Assembly (NCBI RefSeq): GCF_030819175.1
Contig: NZ_JAUTBJ010000002.1
Coordinates: 1,560,001-1,624,000 of the forward strand
Reading direction: 5' to 3'
DNA from: Sphingomonas sp. SORGH_AS_0879
GTDB lineage: Bacteria > Pseudomonadota > Alphaproteobacteria > Sphingomonadales > Sphingomonadaceae
DNA length: 64,000 nucleotides
Positions 18,706 to 23,992 of the stretch are shown here, one piece after another. Within the stretch, counting starts at the first letter, position 1; each line of letters starts with the position of its first letter. A program made the position numbers and the translations under genes. The notes beneath the pieces were generated by a model. That model saw only the letters and a program-made list of their open reading frames with translations, made no database searches and was not told the DNA's origin.

Positions 18706-19374
18706 TCAGTCCTTGAGCAGCGCGTCCACCGATCCGCCGTTGCGCGCCAGTTCCGCGGCGACGCGGCGGCGGCCTTCATAATAGGTCAGCACCGGCGCGG
18801 TCGGGTCGAGCCTGCGGATCAGCGCCTCGTCGCCGGGGCGGATGCTGGTTTCCCCCGCGACATAGTCGGGATAGCCTTCGCGCTTCCAGGCGGGCAGGCG
18901 AAGGGCGGCCCATTCGCCGATATGGTCGGCGACCAGCCGGTGGGTCGTCTCATGCGCGATGGTGCCCGACAGCGTGCGCACCCCGCCCAGCGGTGCGCCG
19001 TTGGTCACCCGGTCCGTCGCGACCGAACTGCGGTTGAAAACCAGCGCATGGGCGAAGGGGCGGCGAAAGGCGATCGCGTTCCGCACGCCGATCGACAGCA
19101 CGTCCCAGCGCCAGCCGCCATCGGTCAGCACCACCTGCCGCGACAGCCCCGTCCGGTAGAGCGGGCTCGTCGCCAGCAGCCCGTCGGCACGGGCCAGTAC
19201 CCGGCCCATCGCGGCCCGGTCGATCGGCTGCTCGGACAGCACCGTGGTCGAGCCGAAATCGGCGCGATAGGGAAAGGCGAGCGCGGCGGGGACATGCACC
19301 ACCCCGGCGATGACGACCGCGCCGCCACAGGCGACCCGGGCCGTCCATCGGCGAAGGCGGGCGAGGCGCGCCAT
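18706..19374 (-). CDS. Predicted membrane-anchored zinc metallopeptidase in the psp operon
   Basis: A 222-aa protein not assigned to a named family. It has an N-terminal membrane anchor or signal segment (residues 15-34) and a zincin signature: H141-E142-T-T-H145 (TIAHETTHRLVAD) followed by E166 in WKREGYPDYVAGE, the layout of peptidase-MA-type gluzincins. The domain would face the periplasm. It begins 2 nt after the last small psp-cluster gene, so it is almost surely in the same operon. Substrate is unknown; function as a protease in envelope stress is inference. Confidence 0.6.
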   Translation of the reverse strand: MARLARLRRWTARVACGGAVVIAGVVHVPAALAFPYRADFGSTTVLSEQPIDRAAMGRVLARADGLLATSPLYRTGLSRQVVLTDGGWRWDVLSIGVRNAIAFRRPFAHALVFNRSSVATDRVTNGAPLGGVRTLSGTIAHETTHRLVADHIGEWAALRLPAWKREGYPDYVAGETSIRPGDEALIRRLDPTAPVLTYYEGRRRVAAELARNGGSVDALLKD

Positions 19375-19376
19375 GG

Positions 19377-19616
19377 TTACAGGTCCACCCCGGCGGCTAT
19401 GGCCTCGAGCTTGCGAATGCGCTCCTTCAGATCGGCCATTTCGATCCGCGCCGCGGCAGACGTGGCGGGCGGGTAGGGCATGTCGTGGCTGCGGTCATAT
19501 TCGCGGCTTTTCAGCTGCAACCATCCGCGCCACCCCGCCAGCCCGGCGGTGACGATCATCGCCAGACCGGCCAGGCCGGCGGTCGCGATGACGATATAGA
19601 GATTGGTGTCGGTCAT
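19377..19616 (-). CDS. Small membrane/coiled-coil protein of the psp operon (PspB-like)
   Basis: 79 aa: one N-terminal transmembrane helix (residues 7-28), a basic linker and a short C-terminal coiled coil LKERIRKLEAIAAG. The coiled coil matches the LxxRIxxLERI pattern of PspB and the three neighbours upstream, but the terminal EIDxLR motif is missing. Probably a shortened member of the same paralogous set. Confidence 0.65.
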   Translation of the reverse strand: MTDTNLYIVIATAGLAGLAMIVTAGLAGWRGWLQLKSREYDRSHDMPYPPATSAAARIEMADLKERIRKLEAIAAGVDL

Positions 19617-19649
19617 GATCCGGGCTCCCTGTCCGTATCAACGGTTGGC

Positions 19650-19907
19650 TTAACGGTCGCGCAGACGCTCGATTTCGCGGTCGAGGTCGATGCTCTTGTG
19701 CTGGTCGGTGATGACGCGCTCCAGCACCTGGATGCGGTCCTTCAACTGCTGAACCTCGGCGCGGAGCGCCTGGGTGTCGCGACTGCCCTCGCCACGCAAA
19801 TGCTCGATCATGTCGAGGCCGGGCGAGCGGCGATGCTTGGCCTTGAAGATGCTGGCGATCATGACGATCGCGACGATCATGACGACCATGAACTGTGAAC
19901 CGGACAT
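19650..19907 (-). CDS. Small membrane/coiled-coil protein of the psp operon (PspB-like)
   Basis: 85 aa: a transmembrane helix at residues 6-19, a basic stretch (KAKHRR), then a coiled coil LRAEVQQLKDRIQVLERVITDQ and the terminus DREIERLRDR. Same plan as PspB: short periplasmic start, one membrane span, cytoplasmic coiled coil. Spacing of 28 nt from the upstream gene. Confidence 0.7.
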   Translation of the reverse strand: MSGSQFMVVMIVAIVMIASIFKAKHRRSPGLDMIEHLRGEGSRDTQALRAEVQQLKDRIQVLERVITDQHKSIDLDREIERLRDR

Positions 19908-19935
19908 GGTGGTAATTCCCCTCTAAAATCTTGTG

Positions 19936-20223
19936 TCAGTGCTCGATGCGGGCGGGCGTTTCGCCCAGCACACGCAGGCTGTCGATTTCGTCGCTGAGCG
20001 CCAGGCCGCGATCGGTGATGATCCGCTCCAGCACCCGGACCCGCTGTTCCAGCTTTTCGGTCTGGGCCGCATATTGCGCCGCCTTTTCCGCGACCATCGA
20101 GGCTTCGGTGGCCAGCCGCTTTTCGCGGTAAGCGAACCAGGGCCGGACGAAGACGCCGCCGATGATCGCGACCAGGCCGCAGCTGATGCCCATGATCGGG
20201 ATCAGAAGAGCGATATTGTTCAT
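19936..20223 (-). CDS. Small membrane/coiled-coil protein of the psp operon (PspB-like)
   Basis: 95 aa: a transmembrane helix at residues 5-27, basic FAYREKR segment, coiled coil EKLEQRVRVLERIITDRG and DEIDSLR near the end. Resembles its upstream and downstream neighbours more than any other gene in the window. Gap of 15 nt from the upstream gene supports cotranscription. Confidence 0.7.
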   Translation of the reverse strand: MNNIALLIPIMGISCGLVAIIGGVFVRPWFAYREKRLATEASMVAEKAAQYAAQTEKLEQRVRVLERIITDRGLALSDEIDSLRVLGETPARIEH

Positions 20224-20238
20224 CCTGTCTCTCCGGGA

Positions 20239-20535
20239 TCAGCGATCGCGCAGCGCGTCGATTTCGCGCGCGGTCCGCTCGGCGGGGTCGGTGGCGATCC
20301 GCTCCAGAACGGCGATCCGCTCTTCCAGTCGAGAGACCTGGCCGACCAGCTTCTGGTTCTCGGCGGTCAGCAATTCGACCTTGCGTTCATCGGCCATGCC
20401 GGTCTTGCCGACGGTGCCGCCCCAGTCATTGTCCAGGCTATAGCCGTGCTTCGCACGGATCCAGGTGGTGACCACCCAGCCGATCGTCGACATCGCGATC
20501 ATCGCCAGGACGAAACCCGGTCCTCCCCAAGACAT
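20239..20535 (-). CDS. Small membrane/coiled-coil protein of the psp operon (PspB-like)
   Basis: 98 aa: a transmembrane helix near residues 7-25, then a long coiled coil (LLTAENQKLVGQVSRLEERI and VLERIATD) ending in AREIDALRDR. The linker between helix and coil (about residues 28-50) is longer than in PspB. Follows pspC after 39 nt. Confidence 0.7.
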   Translation of the reverse strand: MSWGGPGFVLAMIAMSTIGWVVTTWIRAKHGYSLDNDWGGTVGKTGMADERKVELLTAENQKLVGQVSRLEERIAVLERIATDPAERTAREIDALRDR

Positions 20536-20574
20536 GATCCTTACTCCCCTTCAGATGTGGCGTTGGCCGGGCGA

Positions 20575-20958
20575 TCAGCGCAAGCTGTCGATCTCGTCGG
20601 CCAGTTGGCGGTTGCGGCTGGTATAGTGCAGTTCGATATCGGCGAGGCGGCGGTCGATGTCGCGGAAGGTCGAGCGGACCTCGGCGGTCGAGCGGCGCGG
20701 ATTGCTGCGCACGCCCTGCCAGAACTTGGCGTCCTCGTCCGACTGGTAGAGCCCGATCGGCTTGGCCGTCGCCATCCAGGCGACCAGGATGTAAGCGAGC
20801 GGAACCCAGGGCATACCCACCCCGGTGACGGTCAGCAGGACCGCGGCGATGCGGACCCACAGGACGTCGACCCCGGTATAGTCGGCGATGCCCGAGCACA
20901 CGCCCTTGAACTTGGCATTCTGCTTGTCGAGATAGAATTGGGTGCGGCTGGCGGACAT
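20575..20958 (-). CDS. pspC: Phage-shock protein C
   Basis: A 127-aa inner-membrane protein with the PspC domain at residues 5-65 (FYLDKQNAKFKGVCSGIADY, VDVLWVRI and a hydrophobic helix through TVTGVGMPWVPLAYILVAW). The C-terminal tail is extended relative to minimal PspC and ends in a coiled-coil-like segment with DEIDSLR, the motif shared with the downstream small proteins. PspB and PspC sense envelope stress and free PspF from PspA. It begins 1 nt after pspB. Confidence 0.9.
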   Translation of the reverse strand: MSASRTQFYLDKQNAKFKGVCSGIADYTGVDVLWVRIAAVLLTVTGVGMPWVPLAYILVAWMATAKPIGLYQSDEDAKFWQGVRSNPRRSTAEVRSTFRDIDRRLADIELHYTSRNRQLADEIDSLR

Positions 20959-20959
20959 G

Positions 20960-21253
20960 TCAGTTCCTCCGATCGAGGCTGTAGTCGGTGCGGCCGAGGC
21001 GACCTTCCGGGCGCCATTCGGGCTGCGACAGGCTGGGCTTGAAGTCGGGATTGTCGGCGGCGACGATCCGTTCGACCGTGTTCAGCCGGTCCTCCAGCCG
21101 CCGGGCGAGCAGATGAAGCTCGTCGAGCAATTGCTCGTCCTCCTGCGTGATCTTCGGCGCCTGCTTCCACTTGGTCATATAGTGGAGGAACAACCATGGC
21201 AGTGCGATGAAGATCGAGACGATGGGGACGGCGATGTTGAAGAAATCCTCCAT
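20960..21253 (-). CDS. pspB: Phage-shock protein B
   Basis: A 97-aa protein: an N-terminal membrane helix (AVPIVSIFIALPWLFLHYM) then a coiled coil (LDELHLLARRLEDRLNTVER). This is the classical PspB layout, with a C-terminal extension beyond the usual 75 aa. It partners PspC to bind PspA under stress. Starts 1 nt after the pspA stop. Confidence 0.88.
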   Translation of the reverse strand: MEDFFNIAVPIVSIFIALPWLFLHYMTKWKQAPKITQEDEQLLDELHLLARRLEDRLNTVERIVAADNPDFKPSLSQPEWRPEGRLGRTDYSLDRRN

Positions 21254-21254
21254 C

Positions 21255-21923
21255 TCACTCCCCCTTTTTCAGGCGCGCCTTGAGCGCGGCGAGTTCGGCA
21301 TCCACCCGGTCGGAGGTGCGCAGTTCGGCGATTTCCTCTTCCAGCGTCTTGGGCGAGGCGCCCAGGCCCAGCGCTTCGGCGCGGCCCTCGGCCTCGTCCA
21401 CCTTGCGCTCCAGCATGTCGAAGCGGCTGAACGCGTCATGCGTCTTCGACCCGTTCCACATCTCGCGCAGGCGATAGCGGTTGTTCGCGCTTTCCAGACG
21501 GGTCTGGACCGCATTCTGCTTGGTCCGCGCCTCGCGCAGCTTGTTCTGCAACTTGGCGATGTCCTCTTCCGAGGCGCGCAGCGCATCGTCGAGCACCTGG
21601 ACTTCGGCCTTCAACTGGTCGGCCATGTCGGCGGCCTTCTGGCGCTCGATCAGCGCGGCCTTGGCCAGGTCCTCGCGGTCCTTGGACAGCGCCAGTTCGG
21701 CCTTTTCCGTCCAGCTTTCCTGAAGCTGGTCCAGCTTCAGGATGTGGCGGCGGATTTCCTTCTGGTCGGCGATCGTGCGGGCGGCGGAGGCGCGCACCTC
21801 GACAAGCGTCTCCTCCATTTCGAGGATGATCATGCGGATCATCTTCGCGGGGTCTTCCGCCTTGTCGAGCAGGTCGGCGAAATTGGCGGCGACGATGTCG
21901 CGGGTGCGGGAGAAAATGCCCAT
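21255..21923 (-). CDS. pspA: Phage-shock protein A (PspA/Vipp1/ESCRT-III family)
   Basis: A 222-aa nearly all-helical protein starting MGIFSRTRDIVAANFADLLD, the amphipathic membrane-binding helix of PspA, followed by long coiled-coil helices. It binds PspF to repress the operon and, under stress, assembles on damaged membrane. Start ATG 21921-21923 has AAGGAGTCTCCG before it. Confidence 0.95.
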   Translation of the reverse strand: MGIFSRTRDIVAANFADLLDKAEDPAKMIRMIILEMEETLVEVRASAARTIADQKEIRRHILKLDQLQESWTEKAELALSKDREDLAKAALIERQKAADMADQLKAEVQVLDDALRASEEDIAKLQNKLREARTKQNAVQTRLESANNRYRLREMWNGSKTHDAFSRFDMLERKVDEAEGRAEALGLGASPKTLEEEIAELRTSDRVDAELAALKARLKKGE

Positions 21924-21954
21924 CGGAGACTCCTTGATGGCGGCTATTCGGGGA

Positions 21955-22101
21955 TTATGCGGTCGGTGCCTCGATCGCCGCAACCTGGGCCGTGCTGGTG
22001 GCGACATGCGCGGGGGCGAGGGCGCCCATCAGGCAGGTGGCGCTCATCACGACGGTGCAGGCGATGGCGGCGATCTGGCGGGTCAGGTTGGTGGCGAACA
22101 T
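21955..22101 (-). CDS. 48-aa exported peptide, first gene of the psp operon
   Basis: A short protein starting MFATNLTRQIAAIACTVVMS with a hydrophobic core and AHVA-type cleavage context near residues 28-31. The predicted mature peptide is only about 20 aa and Ala/Thr/Val-rich. It lies between the sigma-54-type promoter and pspA, 31 nt upstream of pspA. No relative recognised. It may be a signal-peptide-based sensor or a leader; the coding call is supported by position and a plausible ribosome-binding site (GGGAGTTTCC). Confidence 0.5.
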   Translation of the reverse strand: MFATNLTRQIAAIACTVVMSATCLMGALAPAHVATSTAQVAAIEAPTA

Positions 22102-22160
22102 GGTGGAAACTCCCTGAATTCTATGTTTCGGTCCGCTCATTGGCGGGATGTCGACAGCAT

Positions 22161-22177
22161 TGCAGGAGCCGTGCCAA
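22161..22177 (-). promoter_or_regulatory. Sigma-54 (-24/-12) promoter of the psp operon
   Basis: On the minus strand the sequence reads TTGGCACGGCTCCTGCA: the -24 element TGGCACG and -12 element CTGCA with GG and GC exactly 10 nt apart, as required for RpoN. It lies 60 bp upstream of the first gene. PspF, an RpoN-dependent activator, is encoded divergently, so both halves of the circuit are present. Confidence 0.85.
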
Positions 22178-22240: not shown

Positions 22241-22257
22241 TTGCCAAGCCTTGGCAA
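22241..22257. promoter_or_regulatory. Inverted repeat just upstream of pspF
   Basis: TTGCCAA-GCC-TTGGCAA: perfect 7-bp arms, 20 bp before the pspF start and about 65 bp upstream of the -24 element of the divergent psp promoter. The position suits an upstream activator site for PspF or autoregulation of pspF. Confidence 0.4.
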
Positions 22258-22276
22258 AATCCGCCACCTGTTGGGA

Positions 22277-23314
22277 ATGGAGCGGACGAGTCAGGTCATC
22301 GGCCAGTCGGGGGCCTTTCTGGATACGCTGGAACGCGCCAGCCGCGCCGCGGCTCTGGATCGCCCGGTGCTGGTCATCGGCGAGCGCGGGACCGGTAAGG
22401 AACTGGTCGCCGAACGCCTCCACCGGCTGAGCGGGCGGTGGGACCAGCCCCTGGTCATCATGAACTGTGCCGCGCTCCCCGAGACGCTGATCGAGGCCGA
22501 ACTCTTCGGGCATGAGGCGGGCGCGTTCACCGGCGCGACCAAGGCGCGGGCGGGGCGGTTCGAGGAAGCCAATGGCGGCACGCTGTTCCTCGACGAACTG
22601 GGCACGCTGTCGATGGCGGCGCAGGACCGGCTGCTCCGCGCGGTCGAATATGGCGAGGTGACGCGGATCGGCTCGTCGCGGCCCTTGCGTGTCGATGTGC
22701 GCATCGTCGCGGCGACAAACGAGCATCTGCCCGACAAGGTCGCCGCGCACCAGTTTCGCGCCGACCTGCTCGACCGGTTGTGTTTCGAGGTCGTCACCCT
22801 GCCGCCGCTCCGCGCGCGCAAGAGCGATATCATGCTGCTCGCCAATCATTTCGGGCGGCGGATGGCGGCGGAGATCGGGTGGCAGGACTGGCCCGGCTTC
22901 GGTCCCGCCGCGACGGATGCGCTGATGGAGCATCGCTGGCCCGGCAATGTCCGCGAATTGCGCAACGTGGTCGAGCGCGCGGTCTATCGCTGGGACCGGG
23001 AAGGGCCGGTGGATGCGATCGAGATCGATCCCTTCCGCTCGCCCTATCGCCCGCAGGGCCAGTCCCCCGCCGCCGCGAAAAGCGATCAGGCCAGCGCGCC
23101 TGCTCCCATGAGCGACGGCGATGAGGTGGCGGCCTGCGATGTCGGGCCGTCCGACTTCAAATCGCGCGTCGCCCGGTTCGAGCGCGAATTGCTGACCAAG
23201 GCGCTGGCCGAGAATCGCTTCAACCAGCGGACCACGGCGGAGGCGCTGGGGCTGAGCTATGACCAGCTTCGTCACGCGCTTCGTCGCCATGATCTGATCG
23301 GAACGGTTGCGTAA
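22277..23314 (+). CDS. pspF: psp operon transcriptional activator PspF (sigma-54-dependent AAA+)
   Basis: A 345-aa enhancer-binding protein with no N-terminal sensor domain, as in PspF. The Walker A is GERGTGKE, the sigma-54-contacting loop is [16 protein letters not shown] (GAFTGA), Walker B is GGTLFLDEL, and the Arg-finger region FRADLLDRL is present. A Fis-type helix-turn-helix ([21 protein letters not shown]) ends the protein. Start ATG 22277; an in-frame TTG at 22241 lies in a palindrome and is less likely. Divergent from the psp operon. Confidence 0.93.
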
Positions 23315-23380
23315 CCGCGTTCGGGGAGCCATTTGAGGCGTCCGGCGTTGCCACAGGCAAACCCCAAAGGAGCAATTACG

Positions 23381-23992
23381 ATGGCTTTCGAACTGCCGCC
23401 CCTCCCGTACGACTATGATGCGCTGGAGCCGGTCATCTCCAAGGAGACGATGACCTTCCACCATGACAAGCATCATGCCGCCTACACCAACAAGCTGAAC
23501 GAGGCGGTCGAGGCGGATTCGTCGCTTCAGGGCAAGTCGATCGAGGACATTCTGGCGAACATCTCGTCGGCCCCGGCGGTCGTCCGCAACAATGGCGGCG
23601 GCTATTGGAACCATGACTTCTTCTGGAAGATCATGACCAAGCCCGGCACCACCCAGCCCTCGGGCAAGCTTGCGCAAGCGATCGAGGCGTTCGGCGGTCT
23701 CGACAAGCTGAAGGACGAATTCAACACCAAGGGTGCGGGCCAGTTCGGTTCGGGTTGGGCCTGGGTCATCGCGGATGCCGAGGGCAAGCTGAAGGTCACC
23801 TCGACCCCGAACCAGGACAATCCCCTGATGGACGTCGTCGCCGACAAGGGCACGCCGATCCTGGGTAACGACGTGTGGGAGCACGCCTATTACCTGACCT
23901 ATATGAACGACCGTCCGGGCTATCTGAAGGCCTGGTGGGACGTGGTGAACTGGGACGAAGCCGGTCGCCGGTACGAGGCGGCGGTCGCGTAA
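23381..23992 (+). CDS. sodB: Superoxide dismutase, Fe/Mn family
   Basis: A 203-aa enzyme converting superoxide to O2 and H2O2. It has the N-terminal PLPYDYDALEPVISKETMTFHH segment and the metal ligands around NHDFFW and DVWEHAYYL; ligands are His26, His76-region, Asp and His of DVWEH. The motif GGGYWNHDFFW with GSGWAW is more Fe-type than Mn-type, so the symbol sodB is tentative. Starts after AAAGGAGCAATTACG. A terminator follows at once. Confidence 0.92.
   Translation: MAFELPPLPYDYDALEPVISKETMTFHHDKHHAAYTNKLNEAVEADSSLQGKSIEDILANISSAPAVVRNNGGGYWNHDFFWKIMTKPGTTQPSGKLAQAIEAFGGLDKLKDEFNTKGAGQFGSGWAWVIADAEGKLKVTSTPNQDNPLMDVVADKGTPILGNDVWEHAYYLTYMNDRPGYLKAWWDVVNWDEAGRRYEAAVA

Follow-up and report, generated by a model that had tools for sequence, protein, structure and literature searches.

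Phage-Shock Proteins and Their Described Relatives

Most work on the phage-shock-protein (Psp) system concerns enterobacteria, which have one copy of each component. In Yersinia, PspA leaves the activator PspF on membrane damage, and the C-terminal domain of PspC then holds it at the membrane; to our knowledge, it is unclear to date how PspB and PspC detect the damage and hand PspA over. Here we describe an enlarged psp operon in a stretch of 64,000 nucleotides (the window) from Sphingomonas sp. SORGH_AS_0879 (contig NZ_JAUTBJ010000002.1, positions 1,560,001 to 1,624,000), in which pspA, pspB and pspC are followed by a row of four small open reading frames (ORFs). We found that three of the four encoded proteins share the sequence EI(D/E)xLR with the very end of PspC, and that such a row stands behind pspC throughout the close relatives of the window.

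Passages of PMC5596341 describe binding of PspA by the C-terminal domain of PspC, and in E. coli the leucine zipper of the C-terminal part of PspC is given as required for the interaction with PspA in the abstract and passages of PMC3068692. Extra PspB genes in psp operons are already in print: Ravi et al. 2024 (PMC11237479, passages) describe duplicated PspB genes there, give a single accession as an example, and also mention a PspC to which a divergent PspB is fused at the C-terminus. The kind of arrangement is known from there, but these passages contain no row, tail, distribution or mechanism, and the main text holds no word beginning with "sphingo". No account of the sphingomonad row or of its tail was found in the open-licence literature searched. 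Zymomonas mobilis, which belongs to the same family, has in ZMO1061-ZMO1065 the same layout as the window (sod-pspF-first gene-pspA-pspB-pspC), but only one extra gene, which is o85-like, before sufE. In passages of PMC3495753, PMC8645129 and PMC8237431, pspA, pspB and pspC of Zymomonas are up under ethanol, ZMO1062-1065 are up under xylose, and a temperature table includes ZMO1062 and ZMO1063; these passages name ZMO1062-1065 and not the extra gene.

A Row of Four Small Membrane Proteins behind pspC

The core genes and the four extra ORFs (the extras) are listed below; o98, o95, o85 and o79 are working names taken from the protein lengths (98, 95, 85 and 79 amino acids, aa).

22241..23314, plus strand: pspF ORF, sigma54 activator, divergent from the operon (TIGR02974, 481.9 bits against a cut-off of 443.55)
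21255..21923, minus strand: pspA (TIGR02977, 274.4 bits against 242.95)
20960..21253, minus strand: pspB, without an EIxxLR tail (TIGR02976, 86.1 bits against 51.7)
20575..20958, minus strand: pspC, C-terminus ...LADEIDSLR (TIGR02978, 116.4 bits against 104)
20239..20535, minus strand: o98, one predicted membrane helix, coiled coil and tail AREIDALRDR; conserved family, homologous to o95 and o85
19936..20223, minus strand: o95, one predicted membrane helix, coiled coil and DEIDSLR followed by 11 further residues; homologous to o98 and o85, with an AlphaFold2 model
19650..19907, minus strand: o85, one predicted membrane helix, coiled coil and tail DREIERLRDR; homologous to o98 and o95, best match to the PspB model in the genome after PspB itself
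19377..19616, minus strand: o79, one predicted membrane helix, GWRGWL, end LKERIRKLEAIAAGVDL, no tail; last gene of the array, kept in 79 of 80 related loci

PspA, PspB, PspC and PspF all exceeded their NCBIfam cut-offs, which identifies the locus as a psp operon; the true start of pspF is possibly slightly downstream of 22241. The order on the minus strand is a leader of 48 aa, pspA, pspB, pspC, o98, o95, o85, o79, a protein with an HExxH motif, and sufE.

The four small ORFs are real genes. Compared with seven or eight close relatives, the window gave a median ratio of nonsynonymous to synonymous substitution rates (dN/dS) of 0.28 for o98 (single pairs reaching 0.77), 0.23 for o95, 0.22 for o85 and 0.05 for o79; pspB and pspC in the same comparison gave 0.22 and 0.14. 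Each extra has a single strongly hydrophobic stretch of 19 residues that begins at residue 3-8, and because positive charge is found only behind this stretch, the coiled coil that follows should be cytoplasmic. Hydropathy, charge and the o95 model thus give the extras the PspB trait of a single N-terminal membrane helix with a coiled coil behind it. AlphaFold2 predicted o95, modelled alone, as one helix over residues 6-84 (mean predicted local distance difference test score 81.9, predicted template modelling score 0.38), which fits a coiled-coil anchor and is uninformative on partners. In the extras, the C-terminal coiled coil, together with the tail where one is present, is better conserved than the membrane helix.

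The tail was counted in 80 related loci (L004-L083), which are the best 80 of 503 confirmed PspA loci and so close relatives; their titles read Sphingomonas or Sphingomonadales with few exceptions. EI[DE]xLR was present in PspC of all 80 loci, always as the last six residues. Among the extras it occurred in 72 of 87 o98, 35 of 37 o98b (a close relative of o98), 60 of 68 o95 and 61 of 72 o85 proteins, and in 54 of the 60 o95 carriers it lay in the final 20 residues; these totals exclude one o98 and one o95 ORF that lacked a usable start (88 and 69 before exclusion). It was found in none of 80 PspB and none of 79 o79 proteins, and shuffled cytoplasmic parts contained it in at most 9 of 17,400 cases per family. 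The extras end in EIxxLR or, for o79, in AIAAGVDL, and the PspB type of end (...AADNPD in the window's family, ...DAExPxWR in other alphaproteobacteria) was not encountered among them. Since the motif is found in 80 of 80 PspC and 0 of 80 PspB proteins, the tail connects the extras with PspC rather than with PspB.

The initial annotation had described four small ORFs of these lengths behind pspA-pspB-pspC, each with one N-terminal membrane helix, and this expanded row is confirmed. Its coiled coil of the form LxxR(I/V)xxLERI needs a small correction for the 79-aa protein, which reads LKERIRKLEAI in place of LERI. The shared tail EI(D/E)xLR stands as written for three extras and the end of PspC; it does not extend to PspB or o79, and as an ending it needs correction for the 95-aa protein, in which 11 residues follow the motif.

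Gene order, which the annotation had proposed to compare with relatives, is also kept. Extra ORFs stand behind pspB and pspC in all 80 related loci, and o79 closes the row in 79, the 80th (L050) being interrupted by a contig end. Complete loci have three to six recognised extras: 26 have exactly the window set, 21 have that set plus o98b, and L071 and L079 have an additional o95-like gene at the start of the row. From pspB onward, 398 of 423 intergenic gaps lie within -20 to 100 nucleotides and 24 are longer than 150. In a tree built from 83 array proteins, taken from eight loci of Sphingomonas and nine of other genera in the family, o85, o79 and o98b each fell on one side of a branch and o95 and o98 needed two changes each, so that the five groups required four changes in total against a shuffled mean of 50.6; the alignment has few columns (71), the bootstrap had not converged, and rows were labelled beforehand by their best hidden Markov model match. 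By this count, the paralogues would for the most part predate the genera. The o98-like rows of L165, L166 and L168 lie outside the main o98 group, and gene order is variable, with an o95-like gene first in L165, L166, L168 and L174.

Some loci show further peculiarities. In 19 of the 24 gaps longer than 150 nucleotides, a rule-based pick found another membrane peptide of ~41 aa; it occurs among L041-L083, mostly in the o95-o85 gap and in many cases near ALCGGAIALAESRDRPVRRA, and the window lacks it. The o95 gene between o98b and o85 in L070 is apparently frameshifted, its N- and C-terminal parts lying in different frames. The record of L025 is titled Arthrobacter sp. TPD3018 and has a Sphingomonas-type psp locus; its label or assembly is probably wrong.

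Kinship among the Extras and Likeness to PspB and PspC

In profile-profile comparisons, o98, o98b, o95, o85 and their relatives at sites away from psp (the unlinked relatives described below) scored 72-161 with one another, at probabilities of 98-100%. The controls, which were all families reversed, three PspA coiled-coil segments and FtsB of related genomes, reached at most 28.7 (FtsB at most 21.3, in a set with 24 of 25 rows correct by eye and L251 antisense). On profile similarity the tailed extras are one homologous family, far above coiled-coil controls, and the annotation's assumption of coiled-coil similarity beyond chance is borne out for them. The family covers o98, o98b, o95 and o85, and o79 appears only weakly related: it reached 89-93% with o95 and o85, 75-78% with the unlinked relatives and 3-41% with o98 and o98b, compared with 37% against its own reversed version.

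Towards PspB, the tailed extras and unlinked relatives gave 20% to 95%, depending on pair and direction, with scores up to 44 and controls of at most 22.7. Towards the C-terminal domain of sphingomonad PspC they gave 39-94% (scores 23-40), and towards that of other alphaproteobacterial PspC 33-91% (24-35, controls reaching no more than 21.4); for PspB itself the values were 0-1% with the former domains and 14-66% with the latter. When the whole genome was scanned with TIGR02976, PspB was followed by o85, o95 and o98 (ranks 2-4; E 0.005, 0.05 and 0.56), and with a PspB profile from other alphaproteobacteria by only o95 (E 0.87) and o98 (E 1.8). None of the four extras passed an NCBIfam or Pfam cut-off, the best PspB matches being 19.9 of 25.6 and 19.6 of 51.7 bits; o79 did not match the PspB models, and the N-terminal PspC domain PF04024 matched none of the four. 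PDB sequence searches with PspC and with the unlinked relatives returned nothing judged relevant.

The extras resemble PspB (PF06667, TIGR02976) in size, in the single N-terminal membrane helix, in their place in a psp operon and in the coiled coil L(E/K)xR(I/L/V)xx(L/V)ER(I/V). They differ in lying far below its curated cut-offs and, for the tailed ones, in having a PspC-like tail where PspB ends in ...NPDxxP. With the C-terminal domain of PspC they share, in the window, an ungapped likeness of 24 residues (PspC RLADIELHYTSRNRQLADEIDSLR, o95 RVRVLERIITDRGLALSDEIDSLR) and, in the tailed ones, the same tail, but they have neither the PspC domain nor a second membrane helix, and a PspC-domain profile from outside the family misses them. 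Because the profile-profile and whole-genome comparisons give mixed PspB and PspC likeness, the extras are best described as a family of their own and a member of neither, related to PspB and probably, less surely, to the PspC C-terminal domain.

Duplication of PspB, which the annotation had given as the origin of the row, is weakened and not rejected: the tail is missing from PspB in all 80 loci, the similarity stays below curated cut-offs, and relatives occur away from psp. Copying from the genome's own PspC was dropped as a general rule, the extra in f153 genomes ending in EI(D/N)xL against EF(E/R)(D/N)L in their PspC; L121, where an extra ends in FRDL like its own PspC, agrees with the idea. 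Members of the family are found in other genomes at sites apart from psp, and the row is therefore as likely to have come from recruitment of a family that already existed as from duplication within the operon.

Distribution in the Order, the Class and Beyond

Wider sampling covered the order (99 genomes) and the class (190 genomes). The window's own family is called f1 here, and we infer it to be Sphingomonadaceae. PspC was found in 90 of the 99 order genomes and o79 in 26, namely in 25 of the 26 f1 genomes and in G259, where the match lies inside a frame of 555 aa and is taken as spurious. Judged by coordinates, 24 of these 25 f1 genomes have o79 no more than ~2.5 kb from the main pspC. PspC tails and downstream extras were read in all 26 f1 and in 62 of 64 other PspC genomes (G209 and G268 left out), using the pattern [EQ]I[DE]xL[RK] at the very end. 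Of the 26 f1 genomes, 25 had the PspC tail and all had extras. Outside f1, none of the 62 had the PspC tail, 10 had a similar EI(D/N)xL with a different arrangement at the protein end, and 10, all of them f153, had one extra within 2.3 kb. The f1 exception (G240, L169) can be regarded as a natural loss experiment: its PspC ends before the tail domain, no PspB exceeds the cut-off, and two tailed extras are present. Two Zymomonas genomes have the tail and one extra each; they were picked up in a search with the DNA of that PspC end and are therefore excluded from the 25 of 26. In the class sample, 22 genomes matched the PspC model, 11 of them above the cut-off; 19 were read, two being f1 genomes with the row, and among the other 17 a single one (G175, L121) had two extras, one bearing the FRDL tail of its own PspC.

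Two variants of PspC surroundings were also noticed. G281 (L197) has a second PspC-like gene well away from its main psp operon, and an o79-like gene stands next to it. In the f153 loci L178, L179 and L180, pspC is followed by a second PspC-like gene, which comprises the N-terminal half only, and then by one tailed extra.

The o95 model matched 78 of the 99 order genomes. Many matches outside f1 lay far from pspC and were ORFs of ~70-100 aa that have a single membrane helix and the pattern (V/I)xxLExIxTDxxxxLxxxIxxL; 15 of these loci were read. Among the best 120 of 7,807 database matches, the names are Kordiimonas, Emcibacter, Rhodothalassium, Iodidimonas and similar, and the annotations are mostly hypothetical with a few "Phage shock protein B". 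Beyond this sample such proteins are uncommon: a profile of the unlinked relatives matched 5 of 190 class genomes (three f1) and, among 249 phylum genomes, 24 (ten f1). Of the other 14 phylum matches, three look spurious by eye and one is a PspB next to pspA; for the last ten, of which two belong to the class and eight to other classes, no pspA, pspB or pspC match occurred within ~1.5 kb. In L191, L194 and L196, the ORF immediately upstream of a relative away from psp is large and by eye looks like rpoD.

Predicted Control Region and Leader

22160..22177, minus strand: sigma54 (-24/-12) promoter motif TTGGCACGGCTCCTGCAA, ahead of the first gene, agreeing with the consensus at 11 of 12 positions
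21955..22101, minus strand: leader peptide of 48 aa, exported or in the membrane, first gene of the operon, hydrophobic stretch 10-28

In 73 of 78 related loci, a sigma54 motif upstream of pspA matched 11 of the 12 consensus positions, four more loci scoring 10 and one 8; two of the 80 loci had no exact pspA start to use as an anchor. None of 1560 shuffles reached 11, and inside the row no locus exceeded 10, a score seen in 4 of the 78. The motif is a predicted promoter for the operon, to be used with PspF. Co-transcription of the extras with pspA is suggested because the spacing is tight and the motif is conserved. Between motif and pspA, a leader ORF of 35-62 aa was picked by rule, with no shuffled control, in 73 of 78 loci. 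In Zymomonas mobilis (G545, L264) and in L162, this slot is occupied by an exported protein of ~170 aa with a TonB C-terminal domain, which is ZMO1062 in Zymomonas; the identity of G545 follows from all eight published ZM4 primers, which match at the expected spacing.

Proposed Role of the Row

The extras would be single-span membrane proteins whose cytoplasmic part is a coiled coil of the PspB/PspC type, three of the four with the PspC tail. We see about an even chance that the row is an old expansion within a PspF/sigma54-controlled operon which supplies additional membrane anchors for PspA, perhaps as partners of PspB and PspC. Several membrane proteins with a copy of a PspC-type domain could hold more PspA, or hold it in different membrane settings. 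Because such anchors would be made by the operon that they help to switch on, they could provide feedback as well as capacity; binding of PspA by the extras and this feedback are proposed by analogy with PspC. A further step, which we regard as speculative and on the unlikely side, is that docking of PspA has been multiplied and partly moved off PspC. Up to six different small proteins, each on a membrane helix of its own and most with a common PspA-binding tail, would then form a hetero-oligomeric platform that directs one PspA pool to different membrane environments, and the same anchor family, standing alone elsewhere in proteobacteria, would comprise unrecognised recruiters of PspA or similar proteins.

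In favour of extra anchors for PspA are the homology among the tailed extras, their likeness to PspB and to the PspC C-terminal domain, the stronger conservation of coiled coil and tail, the joint occurrence of PspC tail and row, the two tailed extras of G240, the short gaps, the sigma54 motif, and the published binding of PspA by the PspC C-terminal domain. Several observations weigh against them. The most constrained extra is o79, and yet it has no tail. The sphingomonad PspC domain scored 27.3 (80%) with its own reversed version, which is near the 23-40 of the extras, and the PspC C-terminal-domain profile from outside the family found PspC at E 5e-11 and no extra at E <=10 in their own genome. 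The coupling of tail and row is essentially limited to one clade and perhaps reflects one event. In f153, PspC ends in EFEDL, EFENL or EFRDL and the extra has EI(D/N)xL (three of the ten such extras were read), therefore the tails of PspC and of the extras need not match. Moreover, because relatives occur away from psp, the domain need not act with Psp at all.

Among the alternatives, it is possible, if rather doubtful, that the extras do not hold PspA and that, as decoys or co-inhibitors, they pair by their coiled coils with PspB and PspC and set the threshold for release of the PspA-binding domain by PspC. The PspB-like coiled coil of the extras speaks for this, but G240, where no PspB is recognisable and PspC is missing the domain, keeps two of them, and a threshold alone gives no explanation for a tail identical with the end of PspC. 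We think it improbable that the extras are co-induced small membrane effectors like PspG or PspD, oligomerising and unconnected with PspA docking, with the tail as a coiled-coil capping motif. Other small membrane peptides in the operon, namely the leader and the ~41-aa peptide of the long gaps, are compatible with such effectors, as are the relatives with no psp match within ~1.5 kb; however, the tail exactly ends PspC in 80 of 80 loci, and PspC ends differently in genomes without the row. Finally, it is hardly credible that generic coiled coils and a chance tail make unrelated genes look alike, for although the proteins are short and the PspC-domain profile matches none of them, the reversed, PspA-segment and FtsB controls (at most 28.7 against 72-161 for tailed-extra pairs) and the shuffled tails (at most 9 of 17,400) refute it for o98, o98b, o95 and o85; it could still apply in part to o79 with its 75-93% to o95, o85 and unlinked relatives and 3-41% to o98 and o98b.

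With additional anchors for PspA as the reading to be examined, nature offers the putative docking domain in several versions on different helices, together with G240, which has kept two extras without PspB and without the PspC tail; the role of the tail is therefore directly testable. The finding also draws attention to a protein family that is largely without a name, its members being short and below the PspB cut-offs.

Neighbouring Genes

18706..19374, minus strand: exported HExxH protein (HETTH) of 222 aa, with an N-terminal hydrophobic stretch and no Pfam family, between o79 and sufE

The HExxH protein has a match in just 5 of the 80 related loci and is accessory, probably outside the psp system. 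On the other side of the operon, the gene at 23333-23992, named by eye and taken by us to be a superoxide dismutase gene, stands beside pspF as in Zymomonas mobilis, which is possibly an old synteny.

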